The position numbers and the translations under genes are program-made. Positions 5,454-26,810 of a DNA stretch of 64,000 nt are shown piece after piece; position 1 is the first letter of the stretch; each line of letters opens with the position of its first letter. The DNA is from Thermococcus peptonophilus (GTDB lineage Archaea > Methanobacteriota_B > Thermococci > Thermococcales > Thermococcaceae), in the NCBI RefSeq assembly GCF_001592435.1, contig NZ_CP014750.1, positions 806,001 through 870,000 on the forward strand, written 5' to 3'. The notes under the pieces are model-generated. The model saw only the letters and a list, made by a program, of their open reading frames with translations, made no database searches and had not been told where the DNA came from.

Positions 5454-6242
5454 ATGCTCGTTGGAATAGGCCTTATGCCGCACGGGAACCCGGTTTTAGA
5501 CCCGCCCGATGAGGAAACGAAAAAGCTGGCCAAGGTTTTAAGGGACATTGGAAGGGAGTTCAGTAGTGTCGATGCATACGTCCTCATAAGCCCGCACAAC
5601 GTAAGGATGAGCGACCACCTGGGCGTTATCATGGCCCAGCATCTAATTTCCTGGCTCGGCTTTGAGGGCGTTGAACTGCCCGGAGAATGGGAAACAGACC
5701 GGAAACTTGCCGAGAAAATCTACAATGCCTGGAAAGAGAGTGGAATCCCTGCCGTTGACCTGCACTTCGCCAGCAGGAGCGGACAGTATTCGAGGTGGCC
5801 CCTAACATGGGGCGAGCTCATACCGCTCCAGTTCCTTGAGAAAAAGCCGCTTGTTCTGCTAACTCCCGCTAGAAGGCTGAGCAGGGAGACGCTCATAAAG
5901 GCTGGAGAAGTTCTCGGTGAAATTCTTGAGGGGAGCGAGAAAAAAATCGCCTTTATAGTCAGCGCAGACCACGGGCACGCGCACGACGAGAACGGGCCAT
6001 ACGGCTACAGAAAGGAGAGCGAGGAGTACGACAGACTTATCATGGAGCTGATAAACGAGAACCGCCTTGAGGAGCTTCCAGAAATTCCGGACGAGCTGAT
6101 AGAGAAGGCCTTACCCGACAGCTACTGGCAGATGCTCATAATGCTTGGGGTGATGCACAGAGTTCCAGTCAAGCTCGTCGAGAGCGCCTACGCCTGCCCG
6201 ACCTACTTCGGCATGGCAGGAGCGCTGTGGGTGAGGAAGTAG
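5454..6242 (+). CDS. Extradiol-dioxygenase-like protein (LigB family)
   Basis: Member of the class III extradiol ring-cleavage dioxygenase (LigB) superfamily, related to the MEMO branch. Putative metal ligands are seen in LMPHGNP near the N-terminus, in ISPHNVRM, and in SADHGHAHDENGPYGY. Two earlier ATGs exist (5436, 5448), but GAGGTGAT at 5442-5449 lies four bases before the ATG at 5454, the spacing used by neighbouring genes, so 262 residues are preferred. The gene is coupled to thrC. Aromatic catabolism is not evident nearby, so the substrate is unknown; a non-dioxygenase role, as for MEMO proteins, is possible. Confidence 0.75.
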   Translation: MLVGIGLMPHGNPVLDPPDEETKKLAKVLRDIGREFSSVDAYVLISPHNVRMSDHLGVIMAQHLISWLGFEGVELPGEWETDRKLAEKIYNAWKESGIPAVDLHFASRSGQYSRWPLTWGELIPLQFLEKKPLVLLTPARRLSRETLIKAGEVLGEILEGSEKKIAFIVSADHGHAHDENGPYGYRKESEEYDRLIMELINENRLEELPEIPDELIEKALPDSYWQMLIMLGVMHRVPVKLVESAYACPTYFGMAGALWVRK

Positions 6243-6266
6243 TGTGTAGTTGAAATACACACTTTT
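6241..6266 (+). terminator. Hairpin followed by T-run after the LigB-like gene
   Basis: A perfect eight-base inverted repeat, AGTGTGTA and TACACACT with a seven-base loop, starts inside the stop codon of the LigB-like gene and is followed by TTT. It is positioned to end the thrC unit before the convergent gene. Archaeal termination depends mainly on T-runs, so the hairpin itself may be a processing or stability element. Confidence 0.4.
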
Positions 6267-6324
6267 CCACTATTTTGTGTACCGACGATAAACAACAAAA
6301 ACAGGAAAAGGAACGAAAGCCCCC

Positions 6325-7896
6325 TCAGCGCCTTATATCCACAATCCTGCCCTCGCTTATGACCACCGTGGCGTTGTCCCCAGGCTTAAGGGACAGCAAC
6401 TTGAAAATGAGCTCCTCGCTCAGGTCAGCCGCGCTTATGTAGAGCGTCCTGTTGCCAACTACAAGTATCCAGTGGGTGTTGCCGTCCTTGATGTAGGAGT
6501 AGAGGGCCTTTATCTCGCCCTTCACCTCCTCGGCCTGAACGACTTCTCCCCGGAGAAGGAACTCCTTCACCTCACGCTCGTCTTCGAATATCTTTACCTC
6601 CTTGGTCTCCGCGTTGACGAAGGCTATTTTGGCAACACCCGAGCCGCTCCGCGGGATGATCGCCACGCGCCACCAGAGCGTCCCGTCAATGAAAACGGGT
6701 ATCGGCTCAACAGCCATGAACTGGCTCCAGTCGAAGGTTGGGAGGGCCTTCTTTACATAATCAATCGCCTTAACCGGGCCGGTTAGTGGAGTTTCAAACT
6801 TGACCTGACTCATCTCCCCCGTACGAGCGTCCATTAGGTAAATTGCAGCCAAACCGTGGGCCTTTCCGTAGGGCTCGACTGCCGTCATCCAGTACTTCCT
6901 CCTGTCGCTGGCCACGACTAAGAAGGGCTGTCTGTTGCCCTGGTTGCTGACATCGATGAGCTCTATCTGGTTCTCGTGGTGGAGCCAGAGGTTCTTTATG
7001 TTGGCAAAGACGCCCTCCTTCCAGTAGTTCTGGGCCTTCACAACACTTCTCACCAGCTTCTCCGGAAAGATCGGGAAGTCCCTGAGGCGCTCGTCCTTCA
7101 TGGCTTCCTTAGGACTTAGGTCCTCAACGTTGCCCTCCTCATCAACGATGAAGACGCCGCCCCACTTTGGAACCGTGTAGAAGACCTTGAAGTCGTAGGA
7201 TATGTAAGGGACGACTATGTAGAGCTTTCCGTTGTAGTATAGGGCCCTCGGAAGGTCGAGGTCGATGAGATAGTGCTTCTTGTAGAGAACCCAGTTGAGG
7301 TTGTCGAAGAACTGCATCCCCGGGCCGACCTGAAGTTCTTCCTCGATGCGCTTCATCTTGGCCTGAGTCGTGCCCATATCCACGAACAGAATGCCCTTGC
7401 CCTTGAGCCTGATAGAGTTCCAGGCGCCGTCGGGAACTATGTAGAAGCCCCACACAGGAGTGCCGTTGAGCATCGTCAGATGCCCATCGCTGAGGGTGTA
7501 GCGCGCGTACTCGATCGTGTCTATGGCGTAGCGATAAGCGGTAAATTTGGGAAGGATTCTGATGTAGCTCGTGGAGAGGTTGAGCTCTCCCGTTACAAGC
7601 GAGGGATGGTACTCCTTGTATAAGGCCGTATTGGCAAAGGGAGACGAAAGAATCAGTGCCACTATCGAAAGGAGAAACAGCCCGCCGAGGATCAGCAGAA
7701 GCGTGTAGTTTTTCCCCAGGACGTAGCGCTTTGGTTTGACGGCCATTAACGCTCCCAAAGCGAGGAACATGTAGAGGAGCGCAGGGTTCCTGTAGAAGCC
7801 CATCACAAGCCCGTGGAACCATGGCCTGAAGAACCAGCCCAGGAGAAGAACCGCCAAAGCAACTACTAACGCGGAATAATCACGCATTCCCTTCAT
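6325..7896 (-). CDS. Membrane protein with large C-terminal beta-rich domain, unknown function
   Basis: Unrecognised protein. About three hydrophobic segments fill the first 130 residues (ALVVALAVLLLGWF, PALLYMFLALGALMA, LLLILGGLFLLSIVALIL), followed by about 390 mostly polar residues rich in beta-type sequence (aromatic and Gly/Val alternation), probably outside the membrane. The open frame extends to 7935, but GAGGTGAG lies five bases before the ATG at 7896 while the upstream ATG has no well-spaced site, so the shorter 523-residue form (starting MKGMRDY) is preferred. It stands alone between a convergent gene and a divergent one; no operon partner hints at its role. Confidence 0.7.
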   Translation of the reverse strand: MKGMRDYSALVVALAVLLLGWFFRPWFHGLVMGFYRNPALLYMFLALGALMAVKPKRYVLGKNYTLLLILGGLFLLSIVALILSSPFANTALYKEYHPSLVTGELNLSTSYIRILPKFTAYRYAIDTIEYARYTLSDGHLTMLNGTPVWGFYIVPDGAWNSIRLKGKGILFVDMGTTQAKMKRIEEELQVGPGMQFFDNLNWVLYKKHYLIDLDLPRALYYNGKLYIVVPYISYDFKVFYTVPKWGGVFIVDEEGNVEDLSPKEAMKDERLRDFPIFPEKLVRSVVKAQNYWKEGVFANIKNLWLHHENQIELIDVSNQGNRQPFLVVASDRRKYWMTAVEPYGKAHGLAAIYLMDARTGEMSQVKFETPLTGPVKAIDYVKKALPTFDWSQFMAVEPIPVFIDGTLWWRVAIIPRSGSGVAKIAFVNAETKEVKIFEDEREVKEFLLRGEVVQAEEVKGEIKALYSYIKDGNTHWILVVGNRTLYISAADLSEELIFKLLSLKPGDNATVVISEGRIVDIRR

Positions 7897-19877: not shown

Positions 19878-19984
19878 GATGACCACCCGTGAGAGTTATG
19901 GGTGATGGTAGAGAAAGGCAAATATAACCTTTCCGCCCGGGTTAACCCATTCCAACGGAAGAAAAGGAACAAAGAAAAAGGGCC

Positions 19985-20695
19985 TCACGGGCCGAACGTT
20001 GTCAGCTCGTTCCCGTCCGGATCGAGCACGTGGAGAACGACGCTACCGTTCAGAGCGGTTTCAAGGCCCGATACCAGCTTCATGTACGTGTCCTTGATGG
20101 AGTTGACTTCTTCCTCGCTTGTGAATGAGCTCATAGCCCTGACGTGGTATGTGGAGCCACTCTTCTCGAGGATTACATCCCACGGCCCCTCTCCCGCGAA
20201 ATCAAGCAGGTAGTTCAGCGCTTTCTGGGCCTCCTCGTCGCTCACTCCCGTGTACCAGACGTTGATGCCGTTTGATGACACGTAGCGGTACTTGCTCTCC
20301 ACCTGGTAGAGGACGTTCTTTTCGTCATCAAGAATCTGGAGGAGCACGTGTTCACCGCCAAAAACGTCCTGCGACATCTTTGACGCCAAAAAGACAAGGT
20401 AGAACTTTAGAGAAGCCTCAAGCTCGTCGGGGCTTCCGTAGGTGCTCGTGAGTCTCACGGTGTATCCCCCGTTCTTTTCCACGTAGACGTCCATTCCGTT
20501 TTCGGGGTTCAGCTCGGTGTTGATGAAGTCAATAATTGCCTTGGCCTGACTCATTGAGACGTCTCCGGAGTAGTGAACGGTGATGTCGTTTATCGTGAGC
20601 GTTTTCTCGGTCTTGATGTTAGTATTCGGACTTTCGCAGCCGCTCGCGAGCACGACGACCGCAGCCAGGACAAGTGCAAGCAGCAATTTCTTCAT
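19985..20695 (-). CDS. Lipoprotein with a duplicated domain, unknown function
   Basis: A 236-residue putative lipoprotein: signal peptide ending in the lipobox LASGC (Cys20). The mature part contains two similar halves, each starting with an IN-x-VxYxG strand (INDITVHYSGDVS and INVWYTGVSDEE), a helix, a VxxEKxGxxYxVR strand (YVEKNGGYTVRLTS and ILEKSGSTYHVRAMS) and a final LxxLDxxxN strand. It is the last gene of a six-gene minus-strand cluster of exported or membrane proteins, ten bases after the previous one. No enzyme motif is visible; a surface binding or structural role is plausible. Confidence 0.75.
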   Translation of the reverse strand: MKKLLLALVLAAVVVLASGCESPNTNIKTEKTLTINDITVHYSGDVSMSQAKAIIDFINTELNPENGMDVYVEKNGGYTVRLTSTYGSPDELEASLKFYLVFLASKMSQDVFGGEHVLLQILDDEKNVLYQVESKYRYVSSNGINVWYTGVSDEEAQKALNYLLDFAGEGPWDVILEKSGSTYHVRAMSSFTSEEEVNSIKDTYMKLVSGLETALNGSVVLHVLDPDGNELTTFGP

Positions 20696-20704
20696 TCTCC
20701 CACC

Positions 20705-21088
20705 TCACTTCCTAACCAGTCTGTAAATCCCGACGCTGACAGTGTAGGAATCAACGTTAGCCGGGCTCTTGTAGTCAACCCTTACCTGGAAGGCCTTGCT
20801 TGAGCCGTATATCATGCTGTCCGTTTCCGACTCGGTTAGGACGTTCCCCTTCTCGTCGAGGATCGTTATCTTCTCCACGGTCCCGGTGCTGCTCGCGTTT
20901 ATGTAGTACTTACCTGGCTCAAGGACGTGTGAAAGGTAGAAGACGTCACCGCTGACGGTTTCCGTTTTTACTTCAACCGGAACCTTCTCGTAGAAGGTGT
21001 TGTAATAGTACTGCATGCCGAAGATTCCCGCAATGCCGATAATCAGTAGCACGAGGAAGCCAACAAGGAGCTTTTTAATGAGTCCCAT
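20705..21088 (-). CDS. Single-pass membrane protein with small beta domain, unknown
   Basis: A 127-residue protein with one N-terminal transmembrane helix (LLVGFLVLLIIGIAGIFGM) and an outside domain rich in beta pattern (VEVKTETVSGDVFYLSHVLEPGKYYINA). GGAGGTGAG lies five bases before the ATG at 21088, so an in-frame earlier ATG is rejected. It sits between the PH-like gene and the lipoprotein gene with 20-base gaps or less, so it belongs to the same operon. The domain resembles stress-type or pre-peptidase-like beta sandwiches only loosely; function is unknown. Confidence 0.7.
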   Translation of the reverse strand: MGLIKKLLVGFLVLLIIGIAGIFGMQYYYNTFYEKVPVEVKTETVSGDVFYLSHVLEPGKYYINASSTGTVEKITILDEKGNVLTESETDSMIYGSSKAFQVRVDYKSPANVDSYTVSVGIYRLVRK

Positions 21089-21108
21089 ATATCTCACCTC
21101 CATTACCT

Positions 21109-21558
21109 TTAAAACCCGAATAGCCCTCCTCCCTTGACCTTAATGTTGAGGTCGGAGAGCTTCTTCTTTATCTCACGCTGGTTCATGTTCCCGGAGAACT
21201 TGCTCTTCTCCTTCCACTTTATCTCCATCTCATCCTTCTTGCCCTCATCGATGTTGCCGCTCTTGAGCTTGACTTCCTTTATTCCGTTCAGCGGAATCGA
21301 GAAGTTCTCTGGGGCCTCATTGACTATGTCTTCGGGAGACATCCCGTAATAGCGCTCGTGCATCGTCCAGCCAGAAGAGATTCTCTTGAAGAAGCCGTCT
21401 CCCCTCGCCTTGGCCTCCTCTCTGGCTTTCTGGATCATCTCCCTTTTCACGTGGGCGATGATTATCCTCTGGTCGGTCACAACCAGGTTTACAAGGGCGT
21501 TCTTCAGGAAGCCCTTGTGGTACTCCAAGTTGGGTATCACGTAAACAACTTTCTCCAT
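21109..21558 (-). CDS. PH-like (bPH) domain protein
   Basis: A 149-residue cytosolic protein. The strip NLVVTDQRIIIAHVKREM matches the core of bacterial/archaeal PH-like domains, where LVVTDxRII is the most conserved stretch; a further strand EVKLKSGN and a basic C-terminus follow. AAGGTG precedes the ATG at 21558 with good spacing; a longer frame from 21600 would overlap the small membrane gene. A separate PH/SHOCT protein is encoded 5 kb away (26223). It may link the membrane proteins of this cluster to the cytosolic face. Confidence 0.65.
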   Translation of the reverse strand: MEKVVYVIPNLEYHKGFLKNALVNLVVTDQRIIIAHVKREMIQKAREEAKARGDGFFKRISSGWTMHERYYGMSPEDIVNEAPENFSIPLNGIKEVKLKSGNIDEGKKDEMEIKWKEKSKFSGNMNQREIKKKLSDLNIKVKGGGLFGF

Positions 21559-21592
21559 AATCAAACACCTTCCCATTTTCTTTCCAATCTCA

Positions 21593-21718
21593 TCAAACAA
21601 GCCTCCGAATTAGCCTAAAGGTCAGCTTTGCAAACAAAACAAAGAGAACCCCGGCTACTAAAAGCAGGAAAAGGCCCAGAAGCGGGCCGAGGACGTGGAA
21701 TCCGGTTAAGGGTTCCAT
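21593..21718 (-). CDS. 41-residue single-helix membrane protein
   Basis: A short gene: one hydrophobic helix (VLGPLLGLFLLLVAGVLFVLF) followed by a basic tail (RLIRRLV), giving a positive-inside orientation. It starts two bases after the stop codon of the 447-residue gene, with GGAGG about eight bases before its ATG, the pattern of a translationally coupled gene. Its TGA falls just before the PH-like gene. It probably serves as a small subunit or anchor for the products of this cluster. Its length, ribosome site and hydrophobicity support it; I know no homologue. Confidence 0.6.
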   Translation of the reverse strand: MEPLTGFHVLGPLLGLFLLLVAGVLFVLFAKLTFRLIRRLV

Positions 21719-21719
21719 T

Positions 21720-23063
21720 TCAGCCCCCTCCAAGGTTTGCGTACCTTATCGTTATCCTGTGAGAGCAGTCGCCAGTCTTCTCGTGGGATACGAGCTCAAA
21801 GGCGGTAAGCGTTCCGTCGGAGTTGAGGTTCACGTAGACGTGGCCCGCTTTTATCTCTCCGCTGACTTCCCCCGTTGGGTAGCCAGAGGTAGGTATCTTG
21901 CCCGGGTCCAAGGCATCAAGGCTCCCTTCTCCGAGATCTATCCAGTGACCGAGCAGAGCTGGGTAATCAACGCACCACGGCTCTGCAGCCACGTCAACGT
22001 CCTTCCACATGTCATCTCCTATCTCGTCGAAGCCATTCATCTCGCCCGTGGAGAACTCTACCCCCGCCGCTCCCTCAGTATCAAGGGTCACGGTCTTGAT
22101 TTCGCCCACTTCTCCGCTGGAAGCAGCGGAGGTCGTCGTGGTCAGGAAGGACTCGTAGCAGGCCCTGGCCTTCTGGTATTCCGCGTAGGCTTCCCGAATC
22201 TCCTCATCGCTCGCTCCGGAGGATTGGAGGGAGGTGACGTTGTTGTAGGCCTGGACGAAGAGCCTATAGGCGTCTTCCTTGCTCGGGGCACACGTAGATT
22301 CAGGCTCAACGTTTCCCCCGGTATTCTCGGCACTTATGTGAACTATGCCGGGAAGTTCTTCCGCCGTGATTTCCCCCGAATGGAGCCTCAAAAGGTCGTC
22401 GCTTGAAGTAGATACCGTTAAACTCCCGTTGTCGGCCAGGTAGGTTATCGAGATTTCCTTAACCCATGGGGCATCCTCAAGGATGAGGAAGCTCATCGCG
22501 AAGTAGTCCTTCCAGAAGCCCTCCTTATCAGCGAGGTACTCGAGGGTGACGCTGGCGGTATCATTAGTTATCGTGACGTTGTGGACGAGGACATCGAATA
22601 TCCAGAGGTCTGACTCCACCTTAAATTCAGGCCTCCTTATGTCCTCAAATTCAGGGTTGTCGAAGTCGCCGTTGTGTACAGTCAACCCCAAAACCGGCTC
22701 GCCGAGGTAATACGCCTCCACTCTGACTTCTTTCGTTGGATTGGCCTCGTAGGCCTTCTTTGCCACCTCATAGGCCATGCCCATTAGACCCTCATCCACG
22801 GCCGGAACCTCGAACTGGACGAGTGTTCTCCCGCTCGACAGGGAGACGTAGGCATCCGAAGCGCCCATTGAGATGACAGTCTGCCTGAGGTTTTGGGCAT
22901 CGCTGGATGTAAGCCCGTTGCTGAAGCCCCCTGAACCCGAGCCTCCTCCAGGAGGGTATGGATTGTTGTCCGGGCCGAGGTTGTCGGGGATTTTGATGTA
23001 GCCGTTGAAATACAGATAGCCGCCGAGGAGCAGGAGTATCAGGAGGAGCGCTTTCCCCTTCAT
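21720..23063 (-). CDS. Exported/anchored protein of unknown function, cluster gene 2
   Basis: A 447-residue protein with an N-terminal hydrophobic anchor (ALLLILLLLGGYLYFNGY), a Pro/Gly/Ser linker (PPGGGSGSGG), and a long extracytoplasmic part. The first domain (about 50-260) is mixed alpha/beta; a cysteine-containing helical segment (CAPSKEDAYRLF ... ARACYESF) around 270-320 precedes a Thr/Ser linker (LTTTTSAASS), then a final beta domain with two further cysteines (EPWCVDYPALLGHW; GDCSHRITI). Paired cysteines suggest disulfides outside the cell. GGAGGG precedes the ATG, and it overlaps the 718-residue gene by four bases. Confidence 0.7.
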   Translation of the reverse strand: MKGKALLLILLLLGGYLYFNGYIKIPDNLGPDNNPYPPGGGSGSGGFSNGLTSSDAQNLRQTVISMGASDAYVSLSSGRTLVQFEVPAVDEGLMGMAYEVAKKAYEANPTKEVRVEAYYLGEPVLGLTVHNGDFDNPEFEDIRRPEFKVESDLWIFDVLVHNVTITNDTASVTLEYLADKEGFWKDYFAMSFLILEDAPWVKEISITYLADNGSLTVSTSSDDLLRLHSGEITAEELPGIVHISAENTGGNVEPESTCAPSKEDAYRLFVQAYNNVTSLQSSGASDEEIREAYAEYQKARACYESFLTTTTSAASSGEVGEIKTVTLDTEGAAGVEFSTGEMNGFDEIGDDMWKDVDVAAEPWCVDYPALLGHWIDLGEGSLDALDPGKIPTSGYPTGEVSGEIKAGHVYVNLNSDGTLTAFELVSHEKTGDCSHRITIRYANLGGG

Positions 23064-25216
23064 ATCTTACCCTCCTCGTGGAGCTTTTTGAGGTAGAACT
23101 TTATTCTCTCCGCCTGACTCTGGTACTTCCCCTTGGACTGGGCGTTCATCGTCTGAACCTGTCGGGTAAAGCCTATCGACTCATCAACGTCCCTTATCGT
23201 CAGGGCAACAATATCCTCGTATTTCATGCCGGCTTTTTTGTACTTCATTGCGGTCTTTGCAGTTTCTTCGAACTCCCAGTTGTAGTTGTTTGCCAGGGTA
23301 TGCTTGAACCCCTTTTCAAGCGCGCCAAAGGTGAACTCGAAGGGCTTGGTCAGCGGGGTCGATGGGGCAAGGTTCTTGTAGGGCGATAGCGCGAGCTGTC
23401 TATCTTCAATTCCGCTCATCTCATTGTAGCTTTCAGCCCCTTCCTTGCTCACGTGCAGATCCTGCATGGTTTTTTTGGTTGCATCGTCTGCCTGGAAGAG
23501 CTGGCTGTCCTTGTAGGCCTTAACGTAGTCCTTGCAGAGACCGACCGGGGATGGCATGAACTTTTCAACCAGCTTGTCAAGGGCACCTGAGGCAGAATCA
23601 ATGACGGTGTCGAGCGCCTTGCCGCCGTAATATTTGAGCTTAAACCAGAGGGAGGAACCTTTCTTGGTCTTCACTTTCTCGTCCTTCTGGTAAACCTTAA
23701 CGTCCTTTCCGTACGGGGTCTCGACCTCAACGGTTTCAAGACCCTCTCCAGAACCTATGCCCTTGAGCTTGTCGATGGTTATCTTCATCCGGGCGTTTGC
23801 CTCTTTGCTGAGCATTCCTTCCATCCTTACTCCCCGTAAGGAGTTCTTGAACTTCGATGGATCCCCCGCTTCCTGTTTCCCCTCTATTGGAGACTTACTT
23901 GATGTTGGTGTGTTTGTAGTGGAAGAAACACCGGGGGTTGTAGAGGTAGAGCTGGTGGATGGGGCCGAAGAGCTCGTGGAAGCAGTTTTCTCCCTGAGGT
24001 AGACGGTTATGCTCTTCTCAACATCGTTTCCACCGGCATCCTTCGCGTAGGCCCTTACAACGCCGGTAACGTTCCCGAGGTACTCAGGCTCAAGGGTTAC
24101 GGTTACGGAACCTACCCCTCCACCCTTGCCGAGTCTGGGCTGGAGCTCGCCACCGATCATCACTATCTTTGGGGATCCGCTCTCGTAGTGCGCCCCCGCA
24201 TAGGTTAAGTCTTCGTCGGTAACCTTGACCCTTATCTCAAAGGTCAGTGGCTTCCCCAGCTCAAAATATATCGTCTGGCCGTTCGAGGGGGAGAGTATCT
24301 CAATCTGTGGAGGGTCCCCGTACGTCTCGCTAACCGGAGGTGCTGTGCCTCCGAGAAGGGATATCACCCTGCCCGTGATTGTGTTTCCGATGTAGGTAGA
24401 GAACGAGAGGGCCTTTCCGTGAACGGCTTCGACGTGACTAAGGTAGGCCACGTAGGCGTTCTCATCAACAGTTAAATTAAGCACAGTGCTGTCGTCAACG
24501 GTGAGAAAAGAGGATACGAGAACCGAGCCGTCTTCCAGTACTCCCATCACCCCAGATGTAATGTTTTTTCTGATGTTTTCGCCGTTGTAACTGCCCGAGT
24601 AATACAGGTAATTCCCTAGGTCCCACGCATCACCTGATACGGACACTGAAATGCGGTACTGGCCGTAAACTTCTTGCTTGAGATATTTGAAATGCTGATT
24701 GGCCCTATGATTTGTCAAATCAGGCTTTTCAGGGCTGGACCTTACAAAGTCGGTGTAGAAAGTGTAGCAGTATGCTTTTCCGTCTCCCTCGTGATGCATT
24801 ACTGCCTTATCGTCCGGCAGAAGGCCTGGCTTGGGACTGCAGGAAAGCTCTGTGTTTGAGAAAGCGTTCTGAGCGTTGCTCTCGTTTCCATAATCGGTCA
24901 CGGTCAGATCAACCTGTGCGGTGAGGTTCTCGTTGATTTGATACGTTCCGGAGATGTGCATCTCAAGTTCTCCGAACCAGCTTAACCAGGGTTTTGATAT
25001 AGAGGAGTCCTTCACCGTTATCCCGAGGGACGACAGTTCCGAGATAGTGTCGTTCAGAATTTGCGGAAGGATGCTCGTCACGTTTTGAGATTCGTTAGAT
25101 GAGAGGGATATCCCCGCCGTGGTCGCGCTAACCCCCGAGATGTTGCCCCCAAATGGGGCGACATATGTTAAAATAAGCAGGTAAGCAAAAAGGAGGCATC
25201 CCAACAGTTTCCCCAT
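23060..25216 (-). CDS. Large exported multidomain protein of unknown function, cluster gene 1
   Basis: The first and largest gene of the exported cluster (718 residues). A signal peptide (LLGCLLFAYLLILTYVAP) is followed by a domain to about residue 290 with N-glycosylation sites and cysteines (LSCSPKPG, KAYCYTF), a beta-sandwich-like domain about 305-405 (IEILSPSNGQTIYF ... VTVTLEPEYLG), a Ser/Thr/Pro linker about 412-445, and a lysine/glutamate-rich helical C-terminal domain to the end. No catalytic motif is visible. The Ser/Thr linker is typical of cell-surface proteins spanning an S-layer. No transmembrane segment closes the C-terminus. Starts at ATG with GTGAG upstream. Confidence 0.7.
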   Translation of the reverse strand: MGKLLGCLLFAYLLILTYVAPFGGNISGVSATTAGISLSSNESQNVTSILPQILNDTISELSSLGITVKDSSISKPWLSWFGELEMHISGTYQINENLTAQVDLTVTDYGNESNAQNAFSNTELSCSPKPGLLPDDKAVMHHEGDGKAYCYTFYTDFVRSSPEKPDLTNHRANQHFKYLKQEVYGQYRISVSVSGDAWDLGNYLYYSGSYNGENIRKNITSGVMGVLEDGSVLVSSFLTVDDSTVLNLTVDENAYVAYLSHVEAVHGKALSFSTYIGNTITGRVISLLGGTAPPVSETYGDPPQIEILSPSNGQTIYFELGKPLTFEIRVKVTDEDLTYAGAHYESGSPKIVMIGGELQPRLGKGGGVGSVTVTLEPEYLGNVTGVVRAYAKDAGGNDVEKSITVYLREKTASTSSSAPSTSSTSTTPGVSSTTNTPTSSKSPIEGKQEAGDPSKFKNSLRGVRMEGMLSKEANARMKITIDKLKGIGSGEGLETVEVETPYGKDVKVYQKDEKVKTKKGSSLWFKLKYYGGKALDTVIDSASGALDKLVEKFMPSPVGLCKDYVKAYKDSQLFQADDATKKTMQDLHVSKEGAESYNEMSGIEDRQLALSPYKNLAPSTPLTKPFEFTFGALEKGFKHTLANNYNWEFEETAKTAMKYKKAGMKYEDIVALTIRDVDESIGFTRQVQTMNAQSKGKYQSQAERIKFYLKKLHEEGKI

Positions 25217-25342
25217 TTTTTCTCACACTCCCAAAGCAAAACCACCGCAGAAAAGCAAAGCGGTAGGGGGTTCTGCTTTGTACAAGTTACGCACTACTGG
25301 GTAATAAACATTTCGCAAAAAGAAATTCGACAAAAGGAAAAA

Positions 25343-26222: not shown

Positions 26223-26810
26223 ATGGGGATCAAAGAGAACCCCAAACTGCCGAAGTCCGTGGTGAGACACTTGGAACCAGACGAGAGAGTCCTATTTGCG
26301 ATAAAGAAAAAGGTAAGCCTCGAAAAGCCGAAGTGGCTCCTCGTTACCGACAGGAGGATAATCTACCTCGACGAGAAAGTCCTCGGGAGGTACGATCTCA
26401 AGGCCATTCCCTACCAGAAGCTCGAGCAGGTTCTCGTCAAGCTCGGTATAATGAGCTCAGAGTTCATCATACAGGGCGAAGAAGAGGTAACGCTCAAGCT
26501 TGGCTGGATGAACAAGGAAGAAGCGAGAAAGGCAATAAACGCCATAAAGGACGCCCTTAACGCCATCGCGGTTGAGCCAGTATCTATAGACGTCAAAAAG
26601 GGGTTAACCAGCGAGACCTGGGTGCTGAAGAAACCTAGGGAGTTCGTAACGAGGACGATGCCGGCTTACCAACCAGCCCAAGCCCCAATTCAGGAAGTGA
26701 AAGAAGACCCGCTTGAAAAACTCAAGAAGTTGAAGGAGCTCTACGACATGGGCGTGATAAGCCAGGAGGAATACGAAGAAAAGAGAAAGAAATTGTTGGA
26801 AGAGATCTAA
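26223..26810 (+). CDS. PH-like domain protein with C-terminal SHOCT motif
   Basis: A 195-residue cytosolic protein: residues 15-100 form a bacterial-type PH domain (KPKWLLVTDRRIIYLDEK), followed by a linker rich in Pro/Ala (PAYQPAQAPIQ) and a C-terminal SHOCT motif (LEKLKKLKELYDMGVISQEEYEEKRKKLLEEI shortened here to its pattern: L-K-x-L-x-D-x-G-x-I-x-x-x-E-F/Y). GGTGATG precedes the ATG. SHOCT tails mediate oligomerisation or binding to membrane-associated partners. It converges with the GH13 gene (gap of one base). Confidence 0.8.
   Translation: MGIKENPKLPKSVVRHLEPDERVLFAIKKKVSLEKPKWLLVTDRRIIYLDEKVLGRYDLKAIPYQKLEQVLVKLGIMSSEFIIQGEEEVTLKLGWMNKEEARKAINAIKDALNAIAVEPVSIDVKKGLTSETWVLKKPREFVTRTMPAYQPAQAPIQEVKEDPLEKLKKLKELYDMGVISQEEYEEKRKKLLEEI

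Follow-up and report, generated by a model that had tools for sequence, protein, structure and literature searches.

By sequence comparison, six minus-strand genes of Thermococcus peptonophilus are one version of a hypervariable, mosaic island, in this case a hybrid of its two types, A and B. We regard the locus as a variant of the kind of system first described as VARTIG, a hypervariable mosaic of surface genes whose regulon is marked by an RNA.

The gene cluster and its products

The window, i.e., the whole 64,000-nucleotide stretch that was analyzed, holds the cluster at positions 19985 to 25216. All six open reading frames were found on the minus strand where the earlier note had placed them, consecutive and with overlaps or short gaps, and they look like one operon. 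With starts supported by homologues, the gaps within the cluster are 1–34 bp, and P1 and P2 overlap by 4 bp (full range, −4 to 34 bp); the codon counts are then 718 for P1, 447 for P2, 41 for P3, 149 for P4, 127 for P5, and 236 for P6. P1 (23060–25216) is predicted to be secreted and has a hydrophobic segment at residues 1–26, and P2 (21720–23063) is a putative membrane-anchored ectodomain whose N-terminal helix, at residues 5–23, is the anchor. P3 (21593–21718), a single-helix membrane peptide with the sequence EPLTGFHVLGPLLG, was read from the ATG at 21718, the listed frame of 46 residues being 21593–21733. P4 (21109–21558) was given the start at 21558 on the basis of its homologues (listed frame, 21109–21600), and P5 (20705–21088), N-terminally anchored, was read from the ATG at 21088 (listed frame, 20705–21103). 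The last product, P6 (19985–20695), is a putative lipoprotein in which one domain occurs twice. By hydropathy, P1, P2, P5, and P6 each start with a single hydrophobic segment, P3 has a transmembrane segment, and P4 lacks any; in agreement with the earlier note, P1 can thus be regarded as exported, P2, P3, and P5 as membrane proteins, and P4 as cytosolic. Beyond P6 follows a phosphohexomutase gene with a TATA-like box of its own, AGGTTATATTT, read in the sequence at 19920–19930 (minus strand), and we take this box as the end mark of the island.

The statement that the large families could not be named was borne out. Searches of Pfam, NCBIfam, PADLOC, and PDB sequences gave no significant match for the cluster proteins, profile searches returned no family for P1, PHROGs yielded marginal matches only, and no cluster protein matched a defense family. 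No relatives were found in viral contigs (searched with 1C, the C-terminal module of P1), phages (P1), or plasmids (P5).

Distribution and mosaic structure of the island

P1, P2, P4, P5, and P6 were searched for in 115 genomes of Thermococcota, and wide regions around the matches were compared for gene layout. Some form of the island was present in 59 of these genomes. Its usual site is between btpA and a phosphohexomutase (PGM) gene, and the island or part of it stands elsewhere in G095, G098, G099, G113, and G114. At the six empty sites inspected (G035, G055, G065, G078, G093, and G025), btpA is followed by the mutase gene at a distance of about 10–130 bp; G075 retains a decayed leader. The complete order P1-P2-P3-P4-P5-P6 was observed in only four examined genomes, i.e., the window, G037, G050, and G095. 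Elsewhere, island genes are missing, re-ordered, duplicated, differently fused, or split over two sites, and what stays constant is the P1–P2 pairing, P5, and a common promoter and RNA hairpin.

Two kinds of P1–P2 unit account for this pairing. In type A, P1 ends in the module AC, and P2 starts with A2N, which is rich in aspartate repeats, and ends in 2C; in type B, the end of P1 is 1C, and P2 is short and consists of 2N only. Hybrids, with a P1 ending in 1C and a P2 made of 2N and 2C, were found in the window, G037, G050, G052, G067, G095, and G098, and A and B units stand together in one island in G062 and G044. Counted by locus across the 115 genomes, 1C (23060–23869 in the window, minus strand) was followed by 2N in 30 of 30 cases and AC by A2N in 16 of 16, with no mixed pairs. 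Orphan partner genes were nearly absent, the one case being a degraded 2N in G047.

The identities of 1C and 2N were not correlated with those of the flanking btpA and PGM genes (rho −0.14 to 0.07). Correlation was observed between 1C and 2N (0.73), between AC and A2N (0.67), and between the two flanking genes (0.72). The 2N of the window is 85–87% identical to that of G095 and G098, which belong to another genus and whose BtpA is 71–75% identical, and horizontal transfer is therefore indicated. Since 1C and 2N are neighboring DNA, linkage alone favors their co-inheritance; in G052, 1C is 47% but 2N 84% identical, so the alleles of one pair are separable. Against the exchange picture, the similarity of P6 (rho 0.66) and P5 (0.37) in part tracks that of the flanking mutase gene; the value for P4 was 0.26.

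Many islands contain an additional protein, either of about 570 aa with a CGP-CTERM sorting signal (TIGR04288) or of about 950 aa with an SBBP beta-propeller and accompanied by a P5-like partner (L112:8434-10164, L148:4245-5957, L140:6466-9306, and relatives). A hairpin of its own accompanies the propeller unit in G108, G111, and G067. In the last of these (L119, about 2067-2481 and 5909-6697), a btpA remnant precedes the intact btpA with the propeller-P5b unit between them, an arrangement that looks like the scar of a cassette insertion by recombination in the flank.

Modules of P1 and P2

The comparison of the 115 genomes also set the module borders of P1, which is built of a signal peptide, a variable module 1N (about residues 30–300), 1M (about 300–410; Ig-like by eye), a Ser/Thr-rich linker, and the helical 1C (about 450–718). 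The heads AN and BN are homologous (hhalign 95.5%), and no homology was detectable between AC and 1C (hhalign 0.8%). When P1 of G098 and G095 were compared in blocks of 30 residues, identities were 60, 28, 34, 26, 30, 43, and 72%, then 87–100%; most of the head is thus 26–43% identical, and the remainder of the protein 87–100%. The window and G062 show the reverse arrangement, with a common head (57–97% over the first 210 residues) and unrelated C-termini. Read from these alignments, the N-terminal domain of P1 is swapped between strains.

P2 of the window is composed of 2N (residues 1–245) and 2C (250–447), and the latter contains the cysteines that the earlier note had pointed out, four of them invariant (258, 302, 364, and 433), together with two invariant histidines (H427 and H435). 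The alignments used for structure models were limited to four and eight sequences. The 1C model, from a four-sequence alignment, was mostly helical and of low confidence, and for this reason it was left out of the fold search. The P2 model had a pLDDT of 61 and gave a weak Foldseek match to the HmuY-like fold (best E = 2e-4, TM(target) about 0.35–0.46). As even the best TM-scores stayed below 0.5, we treat this match as no more than a lead. The resemblance to HmuY-like heme-binding lipoproteins thus consists of this weak fold match, probably to 2C, and the two invariant histidines; P2 differs in having no sequence match to them, and its model is of modest confidence. In 2C (within 21720-23063, minus strand), H427 and H435 and the weak fold match could mean heme or metal binding. 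An internal duplication of 2N, hinted at by the secondary structure of the model, was unsupported by sequence (z = 0.65).

P3 to P6 in related genomes

In many relatives, P3 follows P2 or precedes a type B P1. It resembles the beginning of a multi-helix protein of about 150 aa from related genera and looks, by sequence, like a shortened relative of it. This longer protein, with an acidic tail and a YLTGF..GP motif, follows a hairpin in related genera (L140:13275-13739, L141:6824-7294, L145:8423-8896, and L143:13469-13903).

Homologues of P4 were found in 26 of the 115 genomes, and in G067 the gene has its own hairpin leader. The suggestion in the earlier note that P4 is PH-like was not upheld: the bacterial PH family bPH_3 scored 14.3 bits against a cut-off of 23 (E = 0.057), and hhalign gave 8% with the family of a genuine PH-SHOCT neighbor. 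That neighbor, a bacterial-PH and SHOCT protein (26223-26810, plus strand; bPH_3 E = 5e-25), is divergently oriented and adjoins btpA; its gene stays by the island in many relatives and may be an ordinary neighbor or a partner.

The most widespread island protein was P5, in 55 of the 115 genomes, and a search for it beyond Thermococcales in a bacterial and archaeal genome collection returned Thermococcus and Thermococcaceae MAGs only. P6 was found in 35 of the 115 and stands alone behind its own hairpin in G113. Its two halves proved to be a true duplication, as the earlier note had read them (z = 10.5, with none of 500 shuffles as good).

Promoter and leader hairpin

Whichever gene comes first in the island, the stretch that separates it from btpA is conserved and holds three elements: a TATA-like box, the block GCGTAA, and a hairpin. 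In the window, the BRE/TATA-like promoter GCGAAATGTTTATTA is at 25302–25316 on the minus strand, the same place as in nearly all loci, and the hairpin at 25278–25231 on the same strand, with a 16-bp model, an 11–12 nt pyrimidine-rich loop, and a minimum free energy of −20.6 kcal/mol (z = −4.1). All the island units examined, including displaced ones, start with a TATA-like box and this covarying 5′ hairpin. In alignment A7, changes on both sides were observed in 10 of 16 pairs, and the covariation score exceeded all 500 shuffles and every slid control. Covariation also held in A8, with 61 distinct sequences, an alignment that was fitted to the structure and is by its making biased toward it. 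When the 115 genomes were scanned with a covariance model, strong matches came up in 59 of 59 island genomes and in none of the 56 others. Displaced or multiplied units each carry their own hairpin, and its persistence there although the upstream sequence differs indicates that it is not a passenger of btpA.

That the inverted repeat would be a DNA element, either an operator or a recombination site, is rather improbable. It does travel with the units, and a conserved leader would suit as an anchor for homologous exchange. The coding strand is asymmetric in a manner expected for RNA, with 85 G-U against 10 A-C in the inner stem, or 41 against 10 without one pair that contributes 44 of the 85 G-U, counts that are inflated by shared ancestry. 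Since the stem accepts G-U but not A-C, the hairpin probably acts as RNA, as far as its base changes can tell, rather than as a DNA operator. Its presence suggests a common post-transcriptional control of the island. Pairing of the loop with the ribosome-binding site was tested and rejected: native pairs did not surpass those made with swapped loops, and their lead over shuffled loops was slight. In Rfam, the window gave no match at the gathering score except one tRNA, and the leader none up to E = 1.

Comparison with known systems and alternative explanations

VARTIG (VARiable Thermococcales IG) was described by Makarova et al. in 2021 as hypervariable, horizontally shuffled, restricted to Thermococcales, and of unknown function; it has a variable C-terminal Ig domain with a C-terminal DNNxxxGG motif, and recombines beside an RNase III homologue (arCOG05836) (PMC8416519). 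The present island is likewise hypervariable, horizontally shuffled, and Thermococcales-only, and a large exported protein comes first, followed by small membrane proteins. These features, with the shared archaeal order and exchange between species (PMC8416519), would fit an island that is a member or derivative of VARTIG, a reading that we nevertheless consider very improbable. The motif D[ND]NxxxG[GD], sought in the last 15 residues, was absent from all island ORFs. The variable part of the island is the N-terminal head, with C-termini of two discrete types, and not a hypervariable C-terminal Ig domain; its main site is between btpA and the mutase gene, exchange of VARTIG having been seen next to an RNase III homologue; and it has two C-terminal/partner pairs and a leader hairpin on each unit. 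The text of the VARTIG paper contains no phosphomannomutase, promoter, or untranslated region (PMC8416519). By the motif and the variable end as published, the island is thus probably distinct from VARTIG, the large protein of which is arCOG07710; the usual neighborhood of the island differs as well. The motif search had one match outside the island, a 685-aa ORF of G040 (L096:13674-15731) that ends in DNNLICGG; lying about 4 kb away, it may be a VARTIG protein.

The main rival is a system like polymorphic toxins, in which the C-terminal domain of P1 would be an effector, the start of the next membrane protein (2N or A2N) its immunity partner, and their exchange the outcome of toxin-immunity arms races. 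The C-terminal domain and its downstream partner are indeed swapped as a unit, in all 30 and all 16 loci, although in hybrids the pair includes only the start of the partner gene; the distribution is patchy, with exchange between genera, and a large first gene precedes small membrane proteins. Nonetheless, we judge this explanation unlikely. Toxin systems have recognizable toxin domains and many C-termini, and here there was no match to a toxin, nuclease, or protease family, and only two C-terminal versions occurred in 46 cases. Hypervariability lies in the N-terminal head, opposite to what toxin systems show; the partner here is an ectodomain anchored in the membrane; and orphan partner genes are almost absent. 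Less probable still is that the one envelope complex suggested by the earlier note is of fixed composition, has a housekeeping role, and simply evolves fast. The tight operon of envelope proteins fits it, as does the similarity of P6 and P4, which partly tracks the mutase gene, and an envelope-located, co-transcribed, unnamed gene set is supported. The fixed composition did not hold: the island is undetected in about half of the genomes, its composition differs in most others, and domains are swapped abruptly instead of diverging gradually. Gene neighbors differ in most relatives, much of what the earlier note had itself set down as counter-evidence.

Leaders with structure are known in this archaeal order, i.e., the 5′-UTR-derived ncRNAs sRk28, sRk33/sscA, and sRkB, some of which covary (PMC3124441, PMC4247193). 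Judging by the text of these papers, they belong to other genes and contexts, and no such hairpin motif is described. Within the open-licence literature, no paper mentioning both Thermococcales and BtpA was found; an earlier mention elsewhere is possible.

Proposed explanation and its meaning

On balance, and with somewhat better than even confidence, we propose that the cluster represents one allele of a cell-surface system of Thermococcales that is mosaic and exchanged horizontally, in which a variable P1 docks on P2, the units form one RNA-controlled regulon, and recognition is the likely role. P1 would be exported and would carry its hypervariable N-terminal head on an Ig-like stalk. Apart from its signal peptide, it has no membrane segment, and a partner would be required to keep it at the surface; P2, which by inference faces outwards, would hold it at the membrane through docking of the P1 C-terminal domain on the outward-facing start of P2. 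There would be two unrelated docking pairs, 1C with 2N and AC with A2N, each passed on as a unit; recombination would exchange the head and the distal P2 domain 2C. Binding is the best explanation for the strict coupling of the C-terminal type of P1 to the N-terminal type of P2 despite exchange on both sides; against docking, P1–P2 binding was not predictable, and the 1C model was of low confidence. P3, P5, and P6 would be membrane-bound accessories and P4 a cytosolic one. Because every unit has the same kind of promoter-hairpin leader, the genes would make up a single regulon under RNA control. The distal tip would then be what varies, which fits a recognition molecule under diversifying selection, not a C-terminal effector; the likely purpose would be to recognize other cells or viruses, or to interact with them, while diversifying under selection.

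To our knowledge, little is known about how archaea distinguish neighbors, mates, or viruses. A more specific proposal, which we hold tentatively and at less than even confidence, is that the island is a previously undescribed system of archaeal self/non-self or anti-virus recognition, with interchangeable secreted heads on matched docking pairs and with units switched together genome-wide by one leader hairpin. Since the allele classes of the island are clear, and natural hybrids, empty sites, and a common cis element are available, the recognition and RNA-control ideas lend themselves to testing in genetically tractable Thermococcus strains. As for the hairpin, it is a candidate for a new RNA family of archaea, and it offers a simple computational tag with which all pieces of the system can be located. 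With this island, Thermococcales would have a second hypervariable surface module, one that seems to have no relation to VARTIG, and, if the more specific proposal is true, the island would represent a hypervariable surface system of Archaea whose regulon is defined by an RNA.
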